This document shows, piece after piece, positions 4,940 through 62,886 of a DNA stretch of 64,000 nt (the stretch's first letter is position 1; each line of letters begins with the position of its first letter). Source of the stretch: Candidatus Saccharimonadota bacterium (GTDB lineage: Bacteria; Patescibacteriota; Saccharimonadia; Saccharimonadales; Saccharimonadaceae); contig JAFRBS010000022.1 in NCBI GenBank assembly GCA_017404725.1, positions 1-64,000 on the forward strand, read 5' to 3'. The position numbers and the translations under genes are program-made. Under the pieces are notes generated by a model. It ran no database searches and was not told where the DNA came from. It saw only the letters and a list, made by a program, of their open reading frames with translations.

Positions 4940-5015
4940 AGGGGTATAGCTCAGCTGGTAGAGCACAGGTCTCCAAAACCTGGTGTCGGGGGTTCAAGTC
5001 CCTCTGCCCCTGCCA
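4940..5015 (+). tRNA. tRNA-Trp (CCA anticodon)
   Basis: A 76-base cloverleaf. The acceptor stem AGGGGTA pairs with TGCCCCT (one U-G pair), the D arm is GCTC-agctggta-GAGC, the anticodon stem CAGGT/ACCTG encloses CTCCAAA with anticodon CCA, and the T arm is GGGGG-TTCAAGT-CCCTC-like. The discriminator base is G, as usual for bacterial tRNA-Trp, and CCA is encoded. The last 27 bases plus the three that follow are repeated 77 bases further on. Confidence 0.97.
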
Positions 5016-5095
5016 AGTTCAAGGTGCAGTGCCCTTGAACCCCCGACGCGTCCCAAGGGGCGAACGGGGTTCAAGTCCCTCTGCCCCTGCCAAGT
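4989..5095. repeat. Duplicated tRNA-Trp 3' end around a palindromic repeat
   Basis: A perfect 30-bp direct repeat (4989-5018 and 5066-5095) covers the T arm, acceptor end and CCAAGT of tRNA-Trp. Between the copies are a hairpin GTTCAAGG/CCTTGAAC (5017-5040), the inverted repeat CTTGAACCCC (5034-5043)/GGGGTTCAAG (5066-5075), and the reverse-oriented family 16-mer CGCGTCCCAAGGGGCG (5047-5062). The tRNA itself stays intact. The direct repeat looks like the trace of an insertion that rebuilt the tRNA end; no integrase gene is nearby. Confidence 0.8.
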
Positions 5096-8581: not shown

Positions 8582-9187
8582 ATGGCAAATAGAAGAAAAT
8601 ATACTGAAAGCCACTGGCTAGTTTTCGCTTTTCAAGGCGTAGTCGGGCTTTTGTTCGGTTGGTACGTAATGTTTACGAACGTTACGGATCTTGCGGTCTT
8701 GGTCACGATCGTCGCGGCGACTCTGCTCGTCCTCGGCATCATCAGTATCTTGAACCTGGTCCATCGCAAACGCCTCCAGCACGCTTGGGGCCTAACCCTC
8801 GTCGACGCGATCATCGAAATCGCGATCGCTGGCGTCCTTTTCTTCGCCAAAAATGCAGATTATACCCTGAAAATTTCGCTGATCGCCGGCTATACGCTGT
8901 TCCGCGGCGCGCTAGAAATGCTGATCGGTCTGAAGTCTCTGACCGACCGTACCGACCGCTTTATGTGGACGGTCTGCGGAATCTGTGGCGTAATTCTCGC
9001 CTTTGTCATCTTTAACGCTGGCGCCTTCGCCGACCAGACGACCTTCATCAAATTCTTCGGCACTTACATGATGATTTACGGTATTACGAACTTGATTTAC
9101 GGCGTCCATAACAAAAACGAGCTCTCCGAGGAGAAAGAGCATCGTCGCAAGTTGGCCAGAGAGAGGAGTCATAAATCAAGTAAATAA
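8582..9187 (+). CDS. HdeD/DUF308-like membrane protein
   Basis: 201 residues with six membrane segments in three pairs and a charged Lys/Arg/Glu tail, the pattern of the HdeD/DUF308 family. The E. coli member is linked to acid resistance; the role here is unknown. The promoter is TTGTAA, 18 bases, TGCTATAAT, and the ribosome-binding site is AAAGGAG. The last codons and the stop form the left arm of a 21-bp inverted repeat that encloses a copy of the palindromic repeat. Confidence 0.75.
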   Translation: MANRRKYTESHWLVFAFQGVVGLLFGWYVMFTNVTDLAVLVTIVAATLLVLGIISILNLVHRKRLQHAWGLTLVDAIIEIAIAGVLFFAKNADYTLKISLIAGYTLFRGALEMLIGLKSLTDRTDRFMWTVCGICGVILAFVIFNAGAFADQTTFIKFFGTYMMIYGITNLIYGVHNKNELSEEKEHRRKLARERSHKSSK

Positions 9188-9282
9188 ACGATTTCGAAGG
9201 GCCTAAGACTTGGCCGCTCGCCCCTTGGGACGCGGATAGCGGCCCGGAGCGGCCCGAGAAACGTTTATTTGCTTGATTTATG
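9170..9282. repeat. Palindromic repeat copy before galU, with 21-bp inverted arms
   Basis: The arms at 9170-9190 and 9262-9282 are inverted copies with 20 of 21 matches. Inside lies a second stem GGCCGCT/AGCGGCC (9212-9218 with 9237-9243), and its loop holds the family 16-mer CGCCCCTTGGGACGCG (9219-9234). The left arm encodes the last residues of the upstream protein and the right arm runs into the galU promoter. It may also act as a terminator between the two genes, though there is no U-run. Confidence 0.85.
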
Positions 9283-15790: not shown

Positions 15791-18343
15791 ATGGACAGAT
15801 ACGATCCAAAAACAATCGAAGAAAAATGGCAAAAAATCTGGGAAGAAAGTGAGGCCTTTAAAGCTAGCGACGACGAAACGAAGCCGAAAATGTATCTCGC
15901 AGAGATGTTCCCGTACCCTTCTGGGGCTGGCCTCCACGTTGGCCATGTCCGCAACTTTACCATCGTTGATGTCCTGACCCGTTTTTATACCCAGCAAGAG
16001 ATGAATGTCCTCCGTCCGTTTGGGTATGACACCTTTGGTCTTCCGGCTGAGAATTACGCGATTAAAACCGGCACTGCCCCTCAGGACGTGACGAAGACCA
16101 ATATTGCGAATTTCCGCCGCCAGGCTAAGCGTCTCGGCCTGGCGATCGACTGGTCGCGCGAGATTAACACTTCCGATCCGGAATATTATCGCTGGACCCA
16201 GTGGTGCTTCTTACAGCTCTACAAAAAAGGCCTGGCTTATCGTAAAGAATCTTATCAGTGGTGGTGCCCAGTAGATCAGACTGTCCTCGCGAACGAGCAG
16301 GTCGAAAGTGGTAAGTGTTGGCGTTGTGGTACCGAGGTCGAGAAGAAGAAAATGAAGCAATGGTTCTTCAAGATCACCGATTACGCCGACGAGCTCTTAA
16401 ACGACGTCGACGCTCTCGACTGGCCAGAGAAGATTAAGACGATGCAGAAAAACTGGATCGGCCGCTCCGAAGGCGCAGTAGTAGAATTTGAAATTGCAGG
16501 AGGCTTGTCTGAGCCGAGTATGTCGGAGTTACGACGAGACTTAAGCGGCGCGGCCCCCGCGACGACCGCCCCTTGGGACGCGGAAGGCCGAAGGCCTACG
16601 GGCGGACGCGACCGCGTCTCGGCTGGACAAGCCGATGCAATTTCAAATACGATTACCGTGTTTACGACACGTCCGGACACGCTATTTGGCGCGACCTTCC
16701 TCGTCCTCGCCCCAGAACATCCACTAGTTAAGAAACTGGTCAATGACAAAACTCGCGAAGAAGTTGAAAAATACTGCGCGGACGCGATGAAAAAGTCCGA
16801 AATTGAGCGCCAGGAAAATAAGGAAAAAACTGGGGTCTATACCGGCTCGAACGCCATCAACCCGGCAACCGGCGAGGAAATCCCGATTTGGGTTTCCGAC
16901 TACGTTTTGATGGGCTACGGCGAAGGCGCGATCATGGCTGTCCCAGCGCATGACGAGCGCGACTATGAGTTTGCTAAGAAGTTTGACCTGCCGATTAAAA
17001 CCGTAATTGAAAAACCAGAAGACTCGACTGACGACGAAAAATGTTACCACGGTGAAGGTGAGCTCGTAAATTCTGGCCGCTTTGATGGCGTACGCTCCGA
17101 AGATGCTCGCGAGCAGATTGTCGCTTGGCTTGAACAACAGGGGCAGGGAAAGGCCAAAGTAACCTATCGCATGCGCGACTGGCTGATTTCTCGCCAGCGT
17201 TATTGGGGCTGCCCGATCCCTATCGCTTATGATGAAGACGGCAACGAATATCCGATCCCAGAAGACCAGCTTCCAGTCATCATCCCAGAGGTAGAAGACT
17301 ATCAGCCAGACAACACTGGCCGTTCCGCCCTCGCGAAGGCTAAGGATTGGTTGACTTTCGAAATGGAAGTCGAGGATCCTAAGACCGGCAAAAAAGTAAA
17401 AAAGACCTTAACTCGCGAGACCGATACCTTGGATGGCTACGCTTGCTCAAGCTGGTATCTCTGGCGCTATGTTAGTCCGCATGATAAAGAACACGCTTGG
17501 AACCCAGACGCGATTAAATACTGGGCCCCGACCGATGTTTATGTCGGTGGCGACCACGCCGTAGCGCACCTCTTATACATCCGCTTCTGGGCGAAATTTT
17601 TTGCCGACCAGAAGCTCCTGCCGTTCCGCGAGCCGGTAAAAACCCTGCTTTATAACGGCTACATCAACGCTCCAGACGGCAAGAAAATGAGTAAATCTAA
17701 AGGCAATGTCATCGATCCGCTCGACGTTATCGATAGCGGTTATGGCGCCGATACTTTGCGTACCTACGAGATGTTTATCGGCCCATACGACCAAGACGCC
17801 GCTTGGGACACCAAGGCCATCGGCGGCGTCTACCGCTTCCTAAACCGCTGCTGGAGCTTGGTCTTTGATAACGGCGGCGCAACGCGGCAGGACCCCGCCA
17901 ATGCCGTTATCAGAAACCAAACGATCAAGAAGGTAACCGAAGATCTCCATCGCCGCAGCTTCAACACCGCTGTCGCCGCCCTGATGGAATATGTCAATGA
18001 ACTCTACAAACAGGGCGCAACAAACGAAGATTTGACGACCCTAGCGAAACTCTTAAAGCCATTTGCGCCACATCTCGCTTCAGAAATGCTAGAAAAATTA
18101 GAAGAAAATGATGTTTGGCCGACTTGGGATGAAAAGGCCTTAAAGGCCGAAACCGCCCTGGTCGTCGTCCAGGTAAACGGCAAACTCCGCGCGAAACTCG
18201 AAGTCCCGACCGATGGTCTTAAGGACCAAGAAAAAATCGAAAAACTTGCCCTAGAAGACGAAAACGTCAAGAAATTCGTCAAACAAAAGCCAAAGAAAAT
18301 CATCTATGTCGAGCGCGCAAAAATCTTAAACATCGTCGCCTAA
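15791..18343 (+). CDS. leuS: Leucyl-tRNA synthetase with in-frame palindromic insertion
   Basis: 850 residues. Class I signatures: the HIGH equivalent HVGH near 47-50 (YPSGAGLHVGHVRNF) and KMSKS near 630. A zinc-type cluster CPVDQ...CWRCG is kept at the start of the editing (CP1) region, and the editing motif TTRPDTLFGATF is present. Charges tRNA-Leu and removes mischarged residues. ATG 15791 is chosen for its AAGAGG site and promoter distance. Residues about 237-281 are an Arg/Gly/Pro-rich insertion between EFEI and ITVFTTRPDT, where the family normally has only a short turn; it is encoded by a palindromic repeat. The frame is kept. Confidence 0.95.
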   Translation: MDRYDPKTIEEKWQKIWEESEAFKASDDETKPKMYLAEMFPYPSGAGLHVGHVRNFTIVDVLTRFYTQQEMNVLRPFGYDTFGLPAENYAIKTGTAPQDVTKTNIANFRRQAKRLGLAIDWSREINTSDPEYYRWTQWCFLQLYKKGLAYRKESYQWWCPVDQTVLANEQVESGKCWRCGTEVEKKKMKQWFFKITDYADELLNDVDALDWPEKIKTMQKNWIGRSEGAVVEFEIAGGLSEPSMSELRRDLSGAAPATTAPWDAEGRRPTGGRDRVSAGQADAISNTITVFTTRPDTLFGATFLVLAPEHPLVKKLVNDKTREEVEKYCADAMKKSEIERQENKEKTGVYTGSNAINPATGEEIPIWVSDYVLMGYGEGAIMAVPAHDERDYEFAKKFDLPIKTVIEKPEDSTDDEKCYHGEGELVNSGRFDGVRSEDAREQIVAWLEQQGQGKAKVTYRMRDWLISRQRYWGCPIPIAYDEDGNEYPIPEDQLPVIIPEVEDYQPDNTGRSALAKAKDWLTFEMEVEDPKTGKKVKKTLTRETDTLDGYACSSWYLWRYVSPHDKEHAWNPDAIKYWAPTDVYVGGDHAVAHLLYIRFWAKFFADQKLLPFREPVKTLLYNGYINAPDGKKMSKSKGNVIDPLDVIDSGYGADTLRTYEMFIGPYDQDAAWDTKAIGGVYRFLNRCWSLVFDNGGATRQDPANAVIRNQTIKKVTEDLHRRSFNTAVAALMEYVNELYKQGATNEDLTTLAKLLKPFAPHLASEMLEKLEENDVWPTWDEKALKAETALVVVQVNGKLRAKLEVPTDGLKDQEKIEKLALEDENVKKFVKQKPKKIIYVERAKILNIVA
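16486..16648. repeat. Palindromic repeat copy inside leuS
   Basis: A quasi-palindrome of 163 bp. Outer arms ATTTGAAATTGCA/TGCAATTTCAAAT (16486-16498, 16636-16648), then GGCTTGTC/GACAAGCC (16502-16509, 16626-16633), AGCCGAG/CTCGGCT (16512-16518, 16618-16624) and an inner GAGAC...GTCTC region. The centre, 16563-16599, is a 37-base segment identical to one in gatA; it contains CGCCCCTTGGGACGCG and ends in the small hairpin AGGCC-gaa-GGCCT. It is translated in frame with leuS. Confidence 0.88.
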
Positions 18344-39720: not shown

Positions 39721-42700
39721 ATGAATAAATCAACCAAAAACTTCGGGTACGGTTTCTCGGCCTTAGCGCTCGCGCTGAGCTCGGTAAATCTCCCGGCGAT
39801 TCTTGGTACTGCCTCGGCTAGCGCGGCTGATTGTCCGACGGGCAGTGAAACCGTCGACGCAACTTGTGTCTACACGGTAAAAACCGCTGCTGCCTTCAAA
39901 GAAGTCGCAAGCTCGGCGGCTATCGATGAGAAAACGACGGTAATCAAGCTCGGTGCAGACATCGACACGACTACAGTCGAAAACGGCGCAGTCTTCGCTA
40001 CTGCTAAGACCATCGATCTTAACGGCAAGACCCTTACTGGCGGTCTGACGATTAAGAAAGGCGCGAACGTAATCGTTAAAGATTCTTCCGCTAAGAAGAC
40101 TGGTAAAATCGTTGCGAACGGTGCAGTTGTTACCGTAAACATCGAACAGGGTGGTAACGCCGCCATCGAACTTATGGCTGGTAACTACTCTGGTACTACT
40201 TTAGTATCCCGTTCTGGCGACACGCTTGGTGGCGAGAGAGTTACGATCTCTGGTGGTGACTATACTAAGGTTGCCGCTTTGACCGACGGAACTGATTACG
40301 CTCGCTCGATTCTTCTTGCGGGTAATGTTTCCGCTGGCGTCTTCGCTGCAAGCCCGATCGACTACGTCGATAACGCTGCGCAGAACGTCGTTTCCGACGG
40401 CACTCATTACGCAGTTGCTGCTAAGACCACGCTTAACACTACCATATCAGCTGACGGTACATACAACAACGGTGGCGACGAAGAAGAAGCCCTTCTTGGT
40501 ACGCTTACCTATAGCAATACCCCTGTTGAAGACACTTACAAGATCAGCAGTGCTCTTAGCTACACCGTCACTACCGAAGATGAGGATGGCGAGGCAGTTG
40601 AGGTTGATTTCGATAATCTCTTTGTCCTAGGTGACGCTACCGTTAACAAAGACACTAAGACGACCACTATCCCTGTCTCTGTTAAGGAAGGTGCTCCGGC
40701 TGGTGCATATAAGTTAACTGTTAAGACTTCTGACATCGCTAAAGAAGCCGCTAACGTAAGCTCCGAAGAATTTGATGTCACTATCGTTGACGCTGCTGAG
40801 CAGCTTATCGGTGATTTCTTCATCGCTAAAGGCGCAGAGGATCAGGCTGTCGTAATCGACACCGACGCGGTTGCTGAATTCATCGAAGCGCAAGGCTTTA
40901 CTGGTGTAACTTACACTTCGAGCAACGCTGGCAAGGTAGCTGTTGACGCTAACGGCCAGGTTACGGTCAAGGCTGGCGCTGAGGGTGTTTACACGATTAC
41001 CGCTAACTTTGATGATGCGACCAGCTTCTCTTACAAGGTTAACGTTCTCGATACGACCGCAGTCGTTACTATCGCTGACGTAACTGACGAAGATGCTATC
41101 GTCGAAACAGATCTCGGCACCTTCACGGGTTGGGCCGACGCTACTATTAGCGACAAGGGCGAGACTACCTTTGAAGACAAGTATGATGGTGAGCACACCT
41201 GGGATCAGGAATACACGAACACCGTATTTACCCCATCCTCGAACGTTGGTACTTCTACCCGTACTTACACCCACAGCGGCGCTATCGCTACTTTGAACAC
41301 CGAGACCAACAAGATCGAGGTAAAGAAGAACAGCAAGATCGAAAAGACCGTTAAGGTCTACACGGTTAAACTTTCGAAGTCCGAAGTTGCTTTGAAATAC
41401 GACGCTACTAAGCCAGAAACCTTGGATCTTACGACCCTCGCTTTGGCTCCTAGCGACGTAGCTGTAGCAGTTGCTCTTGACGAAGCTGGTGATCCAGCCG
41501 CTACGGCTAAGGTAGACGACGAAAGTCCTGCCAGCAACGTTAAAGCTGCGCACGCAAAAGCTACGGATACCTTCGAGGTTACCTTTAGCGCTACTGGGGC
41601 CGCGAATGTTGTAGCTCCTTTAACCGTTTCGACTTACGCTGAGTCTGAAGACCCAATGGTTGCTGAAGCTGATGCTATTCAATACGTTGAAATCGGCAAC
41701 AGCGTAACCAGCACCACCGCGCTCAACCAAATCGGTTCGGGCAGCGAATTCGAAACCAGCACCGACGAAGCTACTGTTAACGACGCTAACAAAGTTGTCT
41801 ATAACGGTACTAAGAACGGTTCCGAGAAAGTCACGATCAGCGAAGTTCTCGGTGGCCAGACCATCAACACCGGTACTATCGAATATCGCACGGTTGGCCT
41901 CGACCTAGAGACTGACAGATATGTCAAACCAGGCGAAGCTTTGACCCTCACGGCTGAAGAGCTTACCGAAAACTACGGTAGCGTAAAGGTTAGCACTACT
42001 GACGCTCTAGCTACTAAGAACTCTGACGGTTCGTACACCTTTACTTCTAGCGCTAAGGCTGGTGAAACCTACACCATCACCCTCTCTGACACGCTTGACA
42101 AAGACGTACGCGCAAAGATCGGTCACGACCTAGCAGACAAGACCATCACAGTCCACGTCGATGACTACTTCATCACCTCGACCGAAGATTCCTTCGTTAT
42201 CGAGAGCGGTGAGACCTCTGATTCGTTCAAGGTCGAAACCAGCGACAAGAAATTACCAGACTACGAAATCGTTGATTCCCAAGATCAGGCCGCAGCTGGT
42301 ATTACTCTCGAGCAGGTTTCCTTCGCTAGCGGCGTAACGACCTACAAGATTAAGACAACTGCTGCTATGCCTGGCAACTACACCGTTAAATTCGCGCTCA
42401 AAGACAATCCTGTCGAGACCGTTGAAGTTAAGGTTAAAGTTACCCAGCACGTTACTATGCTCCCAGATGGCATCTACACTATCGCCAGCATCATTGATGA
42501 GAATGCAGTAATCGATATCCCTGGCCAGAGCAAGAACGACGGCGCAAGCGCTCAGGTTTACAAAGCCAACGGCACCCGCGCACAGCAGTTCTCCTTCACC
42601 AAGGATGAGGACGGTTTTTACACCATCCGCAACCTCGCTTCCGGTAAGGTCCTCGAGGCTACTGCTACTATCAACAATGGTGACGTCCAGCAAAACTCGA

Positions 42701-43419
42701 TCAACGGTAAAGACAACCAGAAATGGGCTATCTTACTGAACGTCGACCCAGTAGAGGATGGCGATCCGATCATCTCCTTCACCCTCGCCTCCAAGGCTGA
42801 TGAAAACTACGTCATCGACCTTCCAGGCCGTGGTACGAAGAACGGCACCAACGTCCAGGTCTACAAGGCTAACGACACTGTCGCTCAGAAGTTCACTATC
42901 GCTCGTGATGAGAGCTTTGACGAAGATAAAATCGGTAACGCTCTTGACGGCAAGACCTACAAGATCCGCAGCACGAAGAATACCGACATGGTACTCGACG
43001 TCGCTGGCCGTAGCAAAGAAAACGGCGGTAACGTCCAAGCCTACGAAGGCTACGATCCTGAAGACGGTGTAAACGTTGCTCAAGCCTTCACCTTTGAATG
43101 GGTCAACGATAACAACGAAGGCTTCTACGTAATCCACACCAACACCGACGAAGGTACTGATCGCGTACTCGACGTCGCCAACGGTGGCACCGCTAGCGGT
43201 AGCAACGTCTGGCAGTACAAGTACAACGGTACTCTCGCCCAGAAGTGGATCGTCAAAGAAGTTGGCGACGGTAAGTACTCGTTCCAGTCGGCTCTGAGTG
43301 GTCTCTACCTTGACCTCGCGAACAATCCGTTCACGGTCAACAACGGTTCGAACCTCCAGACCTATACTGGCAACGGTACAACCGCTCAAATCTTCACCCT
43401 CGACGAAGTCGACGAGTAA
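39721..43419 (+). CDS. Giant secreted protein with C-terminal beta-trefoil lectin repeats
   Basis: 1232 residues. A signal peptide of about 40 residues ends near ASASAAD. The N-terminal third is beta-rich with a Gly/Thr-rich stretch resembling a short parallel beta-helix (about 65-180); several Ig-like beta repeats follow. The last 330 residues hold at least four ricin-B-type repeats: VIDIPGQSKNDGASAQVYKANG, VIDLPGRGTKNGTNVQVYKAND, VLDVAGRSKENGGNVQAYEG, VLDVANGGTASGSNVWQYKYNG (each with the QxW-like end). Such domains bind carbohydrate. Surface adhesion to host glycans is inferred. No LPxTG or membrane anchor is seen at the C-terminus, so it is released or held non-covalently. Confidence 0.85.
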   Translation: MNKSTKNFGYGFSALALALSSVNLPAILGTASASAADCPTGSETVDATCVYTVKTAAAFKEVASSAAIDEKTTVIKLGADIDTTTVENGAVFATAKTIDLNGKTLTGGLTIKKGANVIVKDSSAKKTGKIVANGAVVTVNIEQGGNAAIELMAGNYSGTTLVSRSGDTLGGERVTISGGDYTKVAALTDGTDYARSILLAGNVSAGVFAASPIDYVDNAAQNVVSDGTHYAVAAKTTLNTTISADGTYNNGGDEEEALLGTLTYSNTPVEDTYKISSALSYTVTTEDEDGEAVEVDFDNLFVLGDATVNKDTKTTTIPVSVKEGAPAGAYKLTVKTSDIAKEAANVSSEEFDVTIVDAAEQLIGDFFIAKGAEDQAVVIDTDAVAEFIEAQGFTGVTYTSSNAGKVAVDANGQVTVKAGAEGVYTITANFDDATSFSYKVNVLDTTAVVTIADVTDEDAIVETDLGTFTGWADATISDKGETTFEDKYDGEHTWDQEYTNTVFTPSSNVGTSTRTYTHSGAIATLNTETNKIEVKKNSKIEKTVKVYTVKLSKSEVALKYDATKPETLDLTTLALAPSDVAVAVALDEAGDPAATAKVDDESPASNVKAAHAKATDTFEVTFSATGAANVVAPLTVSTYAESEDPMVAEADAIQYVEIGNSVTSTTALNQIGSGSEFETSTDEATVNDANKVVYNGTKNGSEKVTISEVLGGQTINTGTIEYRTVGLDLETDRYVKPGEALTLTAEELTENYGSVKVSTTDALATKNSDGSYTFTSSAKAGETYTITLSDTLDKDVRAKIGHDLADKTITVHVDDYFITSTEDSFVIESGETSDSFKVETSDKKLPDYEIVDSQDQAAAGITLEQVSFASGVTTYKIKTTAAMPGNYTVKFALKDNPVETVEVKVKVTQHVTMLPDGIYTIASIIDENAVIDIPGQSKNDGASAQVYKANGTRAQQFSFTKDEDGFYTIRNLASGKVLEATATINNGDVQQNSINGKDNQKWAILLNVDPVEDGDPIISFTLASKADENYVIDLPGRGTKNGTNVQVYKANDTVAQKFTIARDESFDEDKIGNALDGKTYKIRSTKNTDMVLDVAGRSKENGGNVQAYEGYDPEDGVNVAQAFTFEWVNDNNEGFYVIHTNTDEGTDRVLDVANGGTASGSNVWQYKYNGTLAQKWIVKEVGDGKYSFQSALSGLYLDLANNPFTVNNGSNLQTYTGNGTTAQIFTLDEVDE

Positions 43420-59506: not shown

Positions 59507-60962
59507 AGAACTTTCGGCGGTCGAGATGGTAAAAACCGCGCTAGAAAAAGCTAAAGCGGCCCAAGAAAAATACAGCGTCTTCATCAGCTTGAACAAAGAA
59601 GCCGCATTAAAACGCGCAGCAGAAATCGACGGGAAAATCAAAAACGGCGAAAATCCAGGTCGGCTCGCCGGCGTGCCATATGCCCTGAAAGATAACTTCC
59701 TAAGTAAAGACGGAAATACTACCGCCGCGAGCAAAATTCTAGAACCTATGAAGAGCCCGATTACCGCGACTTCGGTTAAGAAGCTCGAAGACGAAGGCGC
59801 GATTATGATCGGCCGCACGAACCTCGACGCGTTTGCGCATGGCTCCTCGACCGAGAACTCCTATTTTGGCCCGACGAAGAACTCGAAAGACGCAGCGCGC
59901 GTCGCTGGCGGCTCATCCGGCGGCTCAGCGGTCGCGGTCGCGCTCGACATTGTCCAGTTTGCGACTGGAACTGATACCGGCGGCTCGATCCGCCAGCCCG
60001 CCTCGTTTAACGGCGTCTACGGCTTTAAGCCGACTTATGGCACGATTTCTCGCTATGGCGTCGTCGCAATGGCCTCGAGTACAGATTGCGTCGGCTTCTT
60101 CGCTAACTCCGCCGAAGACATCGACCTCCTCATGTCTATCACCGCCGGCCAAGACCCCTACGACATGACAACCTTACCGGACTATTACGGCGCCGATTTT
60201 ACAAGGGGTGACGCGTTGCGGGGTCCCGCCGGCCCCGAGCCGCAGGCGAGCGGGTCGGATGGGCGATACAACGCGACCGCCCCTTGGGACGCGGAAGGCC
60301 GAAGGCCTACAGGACCCCGTAAAATCGGCGTGATCAAGGACTTCGATATCAAAGGCGACATCAAAGACGCCCTGGACAAAAAGATTAAAGACTTAAAGTC
60401 CAAGGGATACGAAATCGTCGAACTTGAAATGCCGACCTTAAAATACGCTCTCGCGGTCTACTACATCGTCGTCCCTGCCGAAATCTCCAGCAATTTAAGC
60501 CGCTACGACGGCATCCGCTACGCCTATCGAAACAGCTCCGCAAAATCCCTAGATGAGGTTTACGGTAAATCGCGCTCGGATGGCTTCATGCCAGAAAACA
60601 AGCGCCGCATCATGATCGGAAACTTCGTTCTAAGCTCTGGTTTTTATGACGCTTATTATCTAAAAGCCCAGAAAGCCAGAACCCTAATCATCAAAGAATA
60701 CGAAGAAGCGTTTAAAAAATGCGACTTTATCTTAAGCCCAGTAACCCCGAACCCGGCCTTTAAGCTCGGCGAAAAAACTGACGACCCTGTTTCCATGTAT
60801 CTTGAAGATGTGATGAGCGTGCCAATTAACCTCGCGGGCTTGCCGAGCCTGGCCTTCCCAGTCGGCGAGACAAAAGACGGGCTAAGCCTCGGGCTCCAGC
60901 TCATCGGTCCGAGAAGAAGTGATAAAGCCCTTCTGGACTTCGCTGGAAAGGAGCTAAAATAA
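59490..60962 (+). CDS. gatA: Glutamyl-tRNA(Gln) amidotransferase subunit A with in-frame palindromic insertion
   Basis: 490 residues, amidase signature family. Catalytic Lys in PYALKDN (near 65), the Gly/Ser-rich core GGSSGGSAVAVA and GTDTGGSIRQPAS with the cis-Ser and nucleophilic Ser. It makes ammonia from glutamine and passes it to GatB. Residues about 238-276 are an insertion between GADFT and KIGVIKDF, encoded by a palindromic repeat; it contains GDALRGPAGPEPQASGSDGR, also found in GatB, and TAPWDAEGRRPTG, also found in LeuS. It replaces a short loop, and the frame is kept. Confidence 0.95.
   Translation: MQIASKELSAVEMVKTALEKAKAAQEKYSVFISLNKEAALKRAAEIDGKIKNGENPGRLAGVPYALKDNFLSKDGNTTAASKILEPMKSPITATSVKKLEDEGAIMIGRTNLDAFAHGSSTENSYFGPTKNSKDAARVAGGSSGGSAVAVALDIVQFATGTDTGGSIRQPASFNGVYGFKPTYGTISRYGVVAMASSTDCVGFFANSAEDIDLLMSITAGQDPYDMTTLPDYYGADFTRGDALRGPAGPEPQASGSDGRYNATAPWDAEGRRPTGPRKIGVIKDFDIKGDIKDALDKKIKDLKSKGYEIVELEMPTLKYALAVYYIVVPAEISSNLSRYDGIRYAYRNSSAKSLDEVYGKSRSDGFMPENKRRIMIGNFVLSSGFYDAYYLKAQKARTLIIKEYEEAFKKCDFILSPVTPNPAFKLGEKTDDPVSMYLEDVMSVPINLAGLPSLAFPVGETKDGLSLGLQLIGPRRSDKALLDFAGKELK
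60191..60330. repeat. Composite palindromic repeat inside gatA
   Basis: Locus-specific arms CGCCGATTTTAC (60191-60202) and GTAAAATCGGCG (60319-60330), then GGGGT/ACCCC (60205-60209, 60314-60318). Module 1 (60204-60266) matches gatB 62368-62430 at 60 of 63 bases. Stem GCGTTG/CAACGC (60213-60218, 60269-60274). Module 2 (60274-60310, 37 bases) is identical to leuS 16563-16599. So this copy holds both modules known singly elsewhere. Confidence 0.9.
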
Positions 60963-61387: not shown

Positions 61388-62886
61388 TGAAAGACTATGA
61401 AATCACCATCGGTATCGAATGCCACGTCCAGCTCGCGACGAGAACAAAGCTCTTTTCCGAAGTCGACAACGACGCGCGCGAAAAAGAGCCGAATTCCTGC
61501 GTCTCCCCTGTTGATTATGCTTTGCCGGGCATGCTTCCGCGCCTAAATAAAGAGGCAGTAAAGATGGCGGTCATCGCCGGCCATGCGCTTAACTCAGAGA
61601 TAAATTTGATCAGCCGTTTCGATCGTAAACATTATTATTACCCAGATCTGCCGAAAGGCTACCAGATTTCTCAGCTCTACCAGCCGATTATCGGCGCGGG
61701 CTACGTAAAGCTCCCAGATGGAACGAAAGTGCGGATTGAACACGCCCATATGGAGGAAGACGCTGGAAAACTCAGTCATTTTGCCGGTTATTCGCTGGTC
61801 GATTTGAACCGCGCCGGCACACCGCTGATCGAGATCGTCAGTATGCCAGACATCCATTCCGCCGCCCACGCTCGCGACTATTGTAAAGAGCTCTGGCGGA
61901 TTATGACCTACGCCGGCGTTTGTTTCGGCGACCTCTATAATGGCAACATGCGCTTTGATGTTAATATCTCGCTTGCGAAGCCGGGCGAGCCGCTCGGTAC
62001 GCGCGCCGAGATTAAGAATTTAAATAGCTTCCGTAGCGTCGAACGCGCAGTCGAATACGAGTATAAGCGCCAGTCTAAACTCTTAGACAAGGACGAAAAA
62101 GTCGTTCAGGAAACTCGCGGCTGGTCCGACGATACCGGCGAAACGACTTCGCAGCGCTCAAAAGAAGAGGCCCAAGATTATCGTTACATGCCGGAGCCAG
62201 ACATCCCGCCGATTCACCTGACGAAAGAATTTGTCGAGGAGCAGAAGGCGAAGATGCCAAAACTCCCGGAAGATTACCGCGAGCAGTTTAAAGGCCAAAT
62301 CGCCGACGATACCCTCGAAATCTTGCTCGATTACCAGCCGCTGATGGGCAAGCTAGACGAGCTGGCGAGGGGTGACGCGCTGAGGGGCCCCGCCGGCCCC
62401 GAGCCGCAGGCGAGCGGGTCGGATGGGCGAGACAGCGCGGCAGGACCCCGAGCCAGTATCGTTAAGCGTGTCGCGAACTGGTTCGCGAGCGTCCTCCTCG
62501 CCGAGGAAAAATCTGCGGAGTATTTAAACGACTTGCCTTCCGCAAAGCAGCTAGACGACCTCGCCGAGATGACCGAAAAATCCGAGCTCAGCTCGACCGG
62601 CGCGAAAGAAGTGTTCTTAAAGTTCTTTGATCCCCAGATGAGAAACCGCGACGCCCGCGAGATCGCGAAGGAATTAAACGTTCTCCAGGAGAACGACGCT
62701 GGCGCGCTCGAGAAAATTGTCGACGAAGTCCTAAGCGACCCAGCCTGCGCGAAGGCGGTCGAAGATTATAAAGCCGGCTCCGAGAAAGTCCTCGGCTTCC
62801 TCGTCGGCCAGGTTATGAAAGCGTCGAAAGGCAAGGCGAACCCCGCCGCTGTCCAGCCGATCCTGAAGAAAAAGTTGTCGAAATAA
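61387..62886 (+). CDS. gatB: Glutamyl-tRNA(Gln) amidotransferase subunit B with in-frame palindromic insertion
   Basis: 499 residues. Kinase-like cradle domain: IGIECHVQLATRTKLFSE, HYYYPDLPKGYQISQLYQP, HMEEDAGKLSH, VDLNRAGTPLIEIVS, RFDVNISLA; then helical and YqeY-like tail domains (AREIAKELNVLQ ... KASKGKANP). It activates and amidates Glu- or Asp-tRNA. Residues about 326-355 are an insertion with GDALRGPAGPEPQASGSDGR at the junction between the cradle and the helical domain, where a loop is expected. The rest is of normal pattern. Confidence 0.95.
   Translation: MKDYEITIGIECHVQLATRTKLFSEVDNDAREKEPNSCVSPVDYALPGMLPRLNKEAVKMAVIAGHALNSEINLISRFDRKHYYYPDLPKGYQISQLYQPIIGAGYVKLPDGTKVRIEHAHMEEDAGKLSHFAGYSLVDLNRAGTPLIEIVSMPDIHSAAHARDYCKELWRIMTYAGVCFGDLYNGNMRFDVNISLAKPGEPLGTRAEIKNLNSFRSVERAVEYEYKRQSKLLDKDEKVVQETRGWSDDTGETTSQRSKEEAQDYRYMPEPDIPPIHLTKEFVEEQKAKMPKLPEDYREQFKGQIADDTLEILLDYQPLMGKLDELARGDALRGPAGPEPQASGSDGRDSAAGPRASIVKRVANWFASVLLAEEKSAEYLNDLPSAKQLDDLAEMTEKSELSSTGAKEVFLKFFDPQMRNRDAREIAKELNVLQENDAGALEKIVDEVLSDPACAKAVEDYKAGSEKVLGFLVGQVMKASKGKANPAAVQPILKKKLSK
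62362..62456. repeat. Palindromic repeat copy inside gatB
   Basis: Outer stem CTGGC-GA-GGGGT/ACCCC-GA-GCCAG (62362-62373, 62445-62456) with a tandem G-A mismatch. Module 1 is at 62368-62430. Stem GCGCTG/CAGCGC (62377-62382, 62433-62438) and hairpin GGGGCC-ccgcc-GGCCCC (62384-62400). It lacks module 2 (the CGCCCCTTGGGACGCG segment). Confidence 0.88.

Follow-up and report, generated by a model that had tools for sequence, protein, structure and literature searches.

Palindromic insertions with a constant hairpin tip in a Saccharibacteria genus and their possible spread by fold-back template switching at GT^C

Among the small palindromic repeats of bacteria, the Rickettsia palindromic elements (RPEs) are 105-150 bp long, have terminal inverted repeats and lie in frame in conserved protein genes as well as in RNA genes, and no enzyme that mobilises them is known (PMC10969869, PMC2229807). 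The CGTC-tagged REPs have no dedicated transposase, include RPE-4 and RPE-6, lie in some cases within larger palindromes and have intragenic copies in the genes of tRNA pseudouridine synthase B, DNA polymerase I and tRNA synthetases (PMC3733652). Template switching is also an established source of perfect hairpins, as in template-switch hairpins and quasipalindrome mutations, in which a neighbouring strand is copied in reverse (PMC8794818, PMC8604942, PMC7202029). Moreover, the coding sequences of nematomorph mitochondria contain inverted repeats whose arms are translated, and template switching has been proposed for them (PMC6649704). How small palindromes without a transposase, like the RPEs and the CGTC REPs, are spread has been an open question for more than 20 years. 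GTAG REPs, which go along with RAYT transposases, are palindromes of 20-40 bp and often occur in pairs. For Saccharibacteria no literature on such elements was found in a search whose coverage lacked most subscription journals. The hairpins in tRNA genes, control sites and essential genes of Saccharibacteria described here may be a clue to how such DNA moves without a recognised enzyme.

The locus lies in a stretch of 64,000 nucleotides (the window) of a Candidatus Saccharimonadota genome of 739 kb in 32 contigs, which is 98% complete. An intact tRNA-Trp (CCA) gene is present at 4940-5015 on the plus strand, to which all features of this locus refer; it was recognised by ARAGORN and by Rfam (RF00005, 66.7 bits) and is the only copy able to yield a tRNA. 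Its last 27 nt plus the three nt AGT form a 30-nt direct repeat, the first copy of which (4989-5018) is exactly identical to a second, non-functional copy at 5066-5095, and the repeat search places 47 nt between the two. The insert is ordered as follows: behind the first copy of the target end (T1, up to 5018) comes the spacer TCAAGGTGCAGTGCC (5019-5033), then CTTGAACCCCCGAC (5034-5047), in which the T-arm of the tRNA is copied in reverse and which is 100% complementary to 4985-4998, then the core CGTCCCAAGGGGCGAA and finally the second T1. The hairpin loop of the insert is formed by CGCGTCCCAAGGGGCGAAC (5047-5065), found by a pattern scan, and within it the family core CGCGTCCCAAGGGGC occupies 5047-5061, in the orientation opposite to the other three exact copies of the window (9220, 16568 and 60279, all minus); the genome contains 13 exact 15-mers. 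An earlier note, made from the sequence alone, had described an intact tRNA, a perfect 30-bp repeat with about 47 bases between its copies and a reversed family core in the insert, all of which our searches reproduced, whereas the 14-nt reverse copy of the T-arm goes beyond that account. The target junction is putatively GT^C, between T 4986 and C 4987 where the T-stem begins, as judged from the rule to which eight of eight distinct sites of the second core form adhere (see below), and the tRNA-Trp site itself obeys this rule if the second copy has lost one G. Because this end is present twice, the tRNA itself remains complete.

This arrangement, [target end][spacer][reverse copy of target start][core][target end again], was met again at further tRNAs as well as at CIRCE operators. 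In the own genome (45 tRNA entries by ARAGORN versus 44 matches by Rfam) the tRNA scan located a core 36-42 nt past four of the 45 tRNAs, namely Trp, Val-GAC, Ala-CGC and Asp-GTC, and reverse copies of at least 9 nt lie downstream of four of the 45 and upstream of none. Three of these four sites use a second core form, GAACGTCCCAAGGGGTAAAC, which is found at ten listed places in six of the 99 genus genomes, whereas its reversed control pattern gave no match. Seven of the ten places are located just past tRNAs, two at CIRCE-like operators (TAGCACTC-N9-GAGTGCTAA), beside a Cpn60 gene in L342 and an HSP70 gene in L343, and one elsewhere, and by sequence reading all ten have the structure [T1][spacer][reverse copy][core][T1]. 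At all eight distinct sites of this form that were measured, CIRCE included, the T1 of the intact copy starts with C after GT. Where measured, T1 is 11-52 nt long and runs to or past the tRNA 3' end, and its end coincides with that of the operator at the CIRCE site L342, while the spacers comprise about 15-19 nt at most tRNA sites, like the one at tRNA-Trp. Equivalent anatomy was read at Trp, Leu, Thr, Cys and Ser tRNAs of other genomes; the target GT^C has exceptions here, as the Thr and Cys sites begin with GTA and the Ser sites with CT^C. Since these sites were gathered by their core sequence, the pooled tRNA counts are biased, whereas the own-genome tRNA scan and the tRNA-Trp survey are independent of the core. 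Direct repeats of at least 10 nt beside cores exceed chance: 16 of 224 tests gave one, compared with 4 of 872 when the positions were shifted. As the anatomy recurs in this way and exposes both GT^C and the reverse copy of the target, the suggestion of the earlier note that tRNA-Trp might be the clearest trace of how the family moves is borne out. At the tRNA and CIRCE sites an intact target adjoins the insertion and reveals the copied sequence, the direction of copying and the base at which it began, so that the old question becomes testable.

A comparison with the tRNA-Trp loci of 29 other species revealed in most of them a single tRNA 3' end followed by other sequence. A direct copy of the 3' end is present in L272, L276, L284, L285 and L287 and a partial one in L262, and these copies carry the same or a differing hairpin tip. 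A second tRNA gene, of which the two copies would be remnants and which the earlier note had set against an insertion, was not seen among these loci, and this candidate was rejected: copy 2 comprises only the 3' end and is preceded by a reversed T-arm, and the 3' end is single in most relatives. The tRNA-Trp locus L284 of genome G010 contains tandem units of tRNA 3' end and hairpin whose tip is GACCTAGCGGTG and not the usual core, which suggests that other cores exist in other lineages.

The arms of the stems are specific for each locus. Complementarity between left and right flank has a median score of 15.5 within the same locus versus 7.5 for mismatched loci, a score of at least 15 is reached by 57% of the loci and by no control, and the signal is gone 300 nt away. 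Over 68 loci the arms have a median length of 41.5 nt and 83% identity, a measure which takes in part of the body. Read in mRNA sense, the arm mismatches comprise 91 G-T versus 104 A-C, and as there is no G-T excess the arms give no sign of selection at the RNA level. The total fold energy is similar between the strands, and together with the lack of a G-U excess this led us to discard a strand-specific RNA.

The constant part of the family is only about 18-33 nt long. At 60 of 102 distinct sites, some class boundaries being set by eye, the core lies within a double hairpin, which consists of a perfect 12-16-nt hairpin, a 4-nt linker (nearly always T(T/C)CG), the core and 2 nt. This form is preceded by GT at 47 and by NT at 59 of the 60 sites; of all 102 cores, 92 show a C three bases behind the 14-mer. 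The mini-element often occupies the loops of larger palindromic bodies (CCCGT^CGCCACGGG, GGT^CGTAACC), and by reading its common forms add 33 or 36 nt relative to the uninterrupted loop. Insertion takes place at GT^C and often within hairpin-forming DNA. One intergenic member of the window (9170-9282, by pattern and repeat searches) has its core at 9220-9234 (minus) between 24-nt arms that are 92% complementary. The core family is nearly limited to one Saccharibacteria genus. The exact 14-mer CGTCCCAAGGGGCG is present in 41 of the 99 genus genomes and absent from the other 58, the reversed control was found in none, and a 16-mer occurs in three of 379 genomes sampled phylum-wide, all three of the same genus. 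Almost all records that share the core belong to Candidatus Saccharibacteria, the majority coming from ruminant gut, and nearly all named records are metagenome assemblies.

Besides the tRNAs, protein genes are hit as well. Fifty of the 102 cores lie within one continuous open reading frame, in both orientations and in all three frames. In the ten genes tested the Pfam domains are conserved (LeuS, the amidase GatA, Der, RNase HII plus UPF0102, MurG, LepA, Obg, TruB and PolA), while some of the spanning frames outside these ten, e.g. L039, L050 and L057, may not be real genes. None of five loci with split reading frames that were tested looked like one broken gene. The leuS member (16488-16652; core 16568-16582, minus) lies in frame and comprises a body and the right arm TGCAATTTCAAAT, which was copied in reverse from the native left sequence ATTTGAAATTGCA; L129 is the mirror case. 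The conserved anchors of this site are 237 nt apart here versus 93-102 nt in empty relatives, i.e. about 138 nt longer, and other species harbor differing palindromic inserts or a longer inserted domain at the same site. L156/L148 and L159 have an in-frame insert of about 160-200 amino acids there, which by eye resembles a NUDIX hydrolase domain. The LeuS gene of G097 (L147/L161) has two near-perfect in-frame hairpins without the family core, e.g. TGGGACTCTTCTTC-CGAA-GAAGAGTCCCA. A second palindromic in-frame insert in the leuS gene of the window, found by repeat search (17858-17920; 18-nt arms, 89%), also lacks the core and has a body fragment in common with 62426-62450, which belongs to the gatA/gatB body. 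The gatA gene contains an in-frame member at 60191-60330 (repeat and pattern searches, Pfam) with a 72-nt body (60204-60275), the core at 60279-60293 (minus) and the arms CGCCGATTTTAC and GTAAAATCGGCG, and gatB carries a body without mini-element (62368-62450), which the repeat search found to be 93% identical to that of gatA over 72 nt. The gatA body with its mini-element (60204-60313) and the gatB body are a filled and an empty copy in the same window; as the sample has one genome per species, no empty site of the same species was seen. Tiny hairpins thus remodel essential proteins and tRNAs of a bacterium with a reduced genome and are an in-genome source of new protein segments.

In their behaviour the RPEs appear nearest to this family, as judged by their description. 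Both are dispersed short palindromes in a reduced genome, which lie in frame in conserved genes (here the 50 of 102 cores in spanning frames) and also in structural RNA genes, here in tRNA genes whose end is rebuilt. However, the constant part is 18-33 nt here, the outer arms come from each target, the target is GT^C and the phylum is a different one. With the CGTC REPs the family shares the CGTC itself, the lack of a linked Y1 transposase, the location of some copies inside larger palindromes and similar target genes (here TruB, PolA and LeuS). In contrast to these REPs, the C, T and C of CGTC are paired here (columns 53, 55 and 56 of A1 in the consensus fold), so that no unpaired tag exists, and the stem is not of the 8-9 bp type with A/T first pairs. 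Neither arms copied from the target nor a duplication of the tRNA end is described for RPEs or CGTC REPs in the accessible parts of the respective papers (PMC10969869, PMC2229807, PMC3733652). Palindromes of 20-40 bp that are often paired are a likeness to the GTAG REPs, but the GTAG foot is absent here as a rule and a Y1 (HUH) transposase is missing from this genome. Unlike in MITEs, the arms are locus-specific and not shared terminal inverted repeats; a parent transposon was sought as Y1 type. The family differs from template-switch hairpins by its constant core, which is inserted at a fixed target and is now dispersed over unrelated loci, and the nematomorph palindromes have neither a shared core nor an insertion.

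With a probability of about 0.55, we regard the insertion behind tRNA-Trp as one member of a lineage-specific family of tiny palindromic mobile elements that arises by fold-back template switching at GT^C, presumably at the DNA level. A growing strand would gain the core at GT^C, the core would fold into a hairpin, and the polymerase would copy its own target strand backwards and then go back to the normal template, so that the new DNA would read [reverse copy of the target's first bases]-[core]-[target resumed]. In the survivors at tRNAs and operators re-entry would have happened at a point sufficiently upstream for the 3' end to be restored in full, which would lead to the direct duplication and the intact tRNA, and in protein genes only stop-free events that preserve the frame would survive. 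A T1 of variable length with a fixed functional end is what would be expected if only target-rebuilding insertions survive. However, a target fixed at GT^C would rather be expected from an enzyme than from switching at random. Furthermore, simple re-entry would predict that the spacers repeat the sequence behind the second copy, which most of them do not (L276 and L284 are among those that do), and template switching leaves the travel of the core to new loci as well as the mostly 15-19-nt spacers unexplained. Whether the family stands for a class of mobile DNA of its own, with a constant hairpin tip of 18-33 nt, insertion at GT^C, arms made by copying the target backwards, no own transposase and spread via host replication or repair, can be proposed only tentatively.

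The main rival assumes an unrecognised host nuclease or recombinase that would cleave hairpins at GT^C and attach the core there as a cap that is itself a hairpin, and predicts the same junctions as template switching. Opening the cap off-centre would leave a reverse copy (cf. P-nucleotides), and joining to a sister molecule would duplicate the tRNA end. The fixed cut at GT^C, the core as the invariable tip of each new palindrome and the bias towards targets that form hairpins, namely tRNA arms, CIRCE and the loops of larger palindromes, are all in line with it, but no candidate gene was found, and among the families searched neither Y1 transposase nor reverse transcriptase tracks the core; we rate it as rather unlikely. 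A Y1 transposase (Y1_Tnp, the class searched) is encoded nowhere in the genome of the window and in three of the 99 genus genomes, and its lack in this genome speaks against mobilisation of the RAYT/IS200 kind. By hand count, 20 of the 41 genomes with the core and 40 of the 58 without it have a reverse transcriptase, and 21 of the 41 core-positive genomes, near-complete ones such as G046 included, have no RVT_1 match. As these enzymes are common in the genus and not associated with the core, dependence on reverse transcription or an origin as product of a diversity-generating retroelement was dismissed.

It is very improbable that an island or phage used tRNA-Trp as attachment site and was then deleted, the direct repeat being left behind, although attachment sites are classically recognised by just such an exactly repeated tRNA 3' end and the earlier note had considered a remnant of this kind. 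The insert is just 47 nt long, carries the family core and has neither integrase nor cargo between the repeats; the same arrangement, with repeats of 11-52 nt, is found at many tRNAs and CIRCE operators, the core recurs at unrelated targets, and most relatives have a single-copy tRNA-Trp without core and no island within 110 nt downstream. As viral contigs contain the 16-mer in unrelated contexts only, a phage-borne origin of the family was likewise discarded. A functional RNA or DNA signal under selection that is mobile in looks only, e.g. a tRNA terminator or a 3'-processing hairpin, would account for strong hairpins after tRNAs and for compensatory changes at 12 of the 20 predicted pairs of the body, but we hold it for improbable, since the hairpin is present at just four of 45 tRNAs, lies inside reading frames in both orientations and in its exact form is missing from 58 of 99 relatives. 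Moreover, reverse copying alone gives matched arms, so the paired changes are no proof of an RNA function, and the arms have no G-U excess. A palindrome with a constant tip also looks like a read from a hairpin adapter, yet an assembly or library artefact is hardly credible, because the core recurs in many independent metagenome-assembled genomes almost only of Saccharibacteria (phylum-wide in one genus), the spanning cases are in frame and stop-free, and the reversed control pattern has no match.

At the gathering threshold of Rfam tRNA was the only RNA family matched, and weak matches below the threshold in seven loci were not accepted as real. Reverse transcriptases occur in 60 of the 99 genus genomes, with three in the genome of the window, and possibly belong to diversity-generating retroelements. 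Finally, the window contains 45-nt repeated units spaced 174-303 nt apart at 42508-43209, which possibly encode a repetitive protein.
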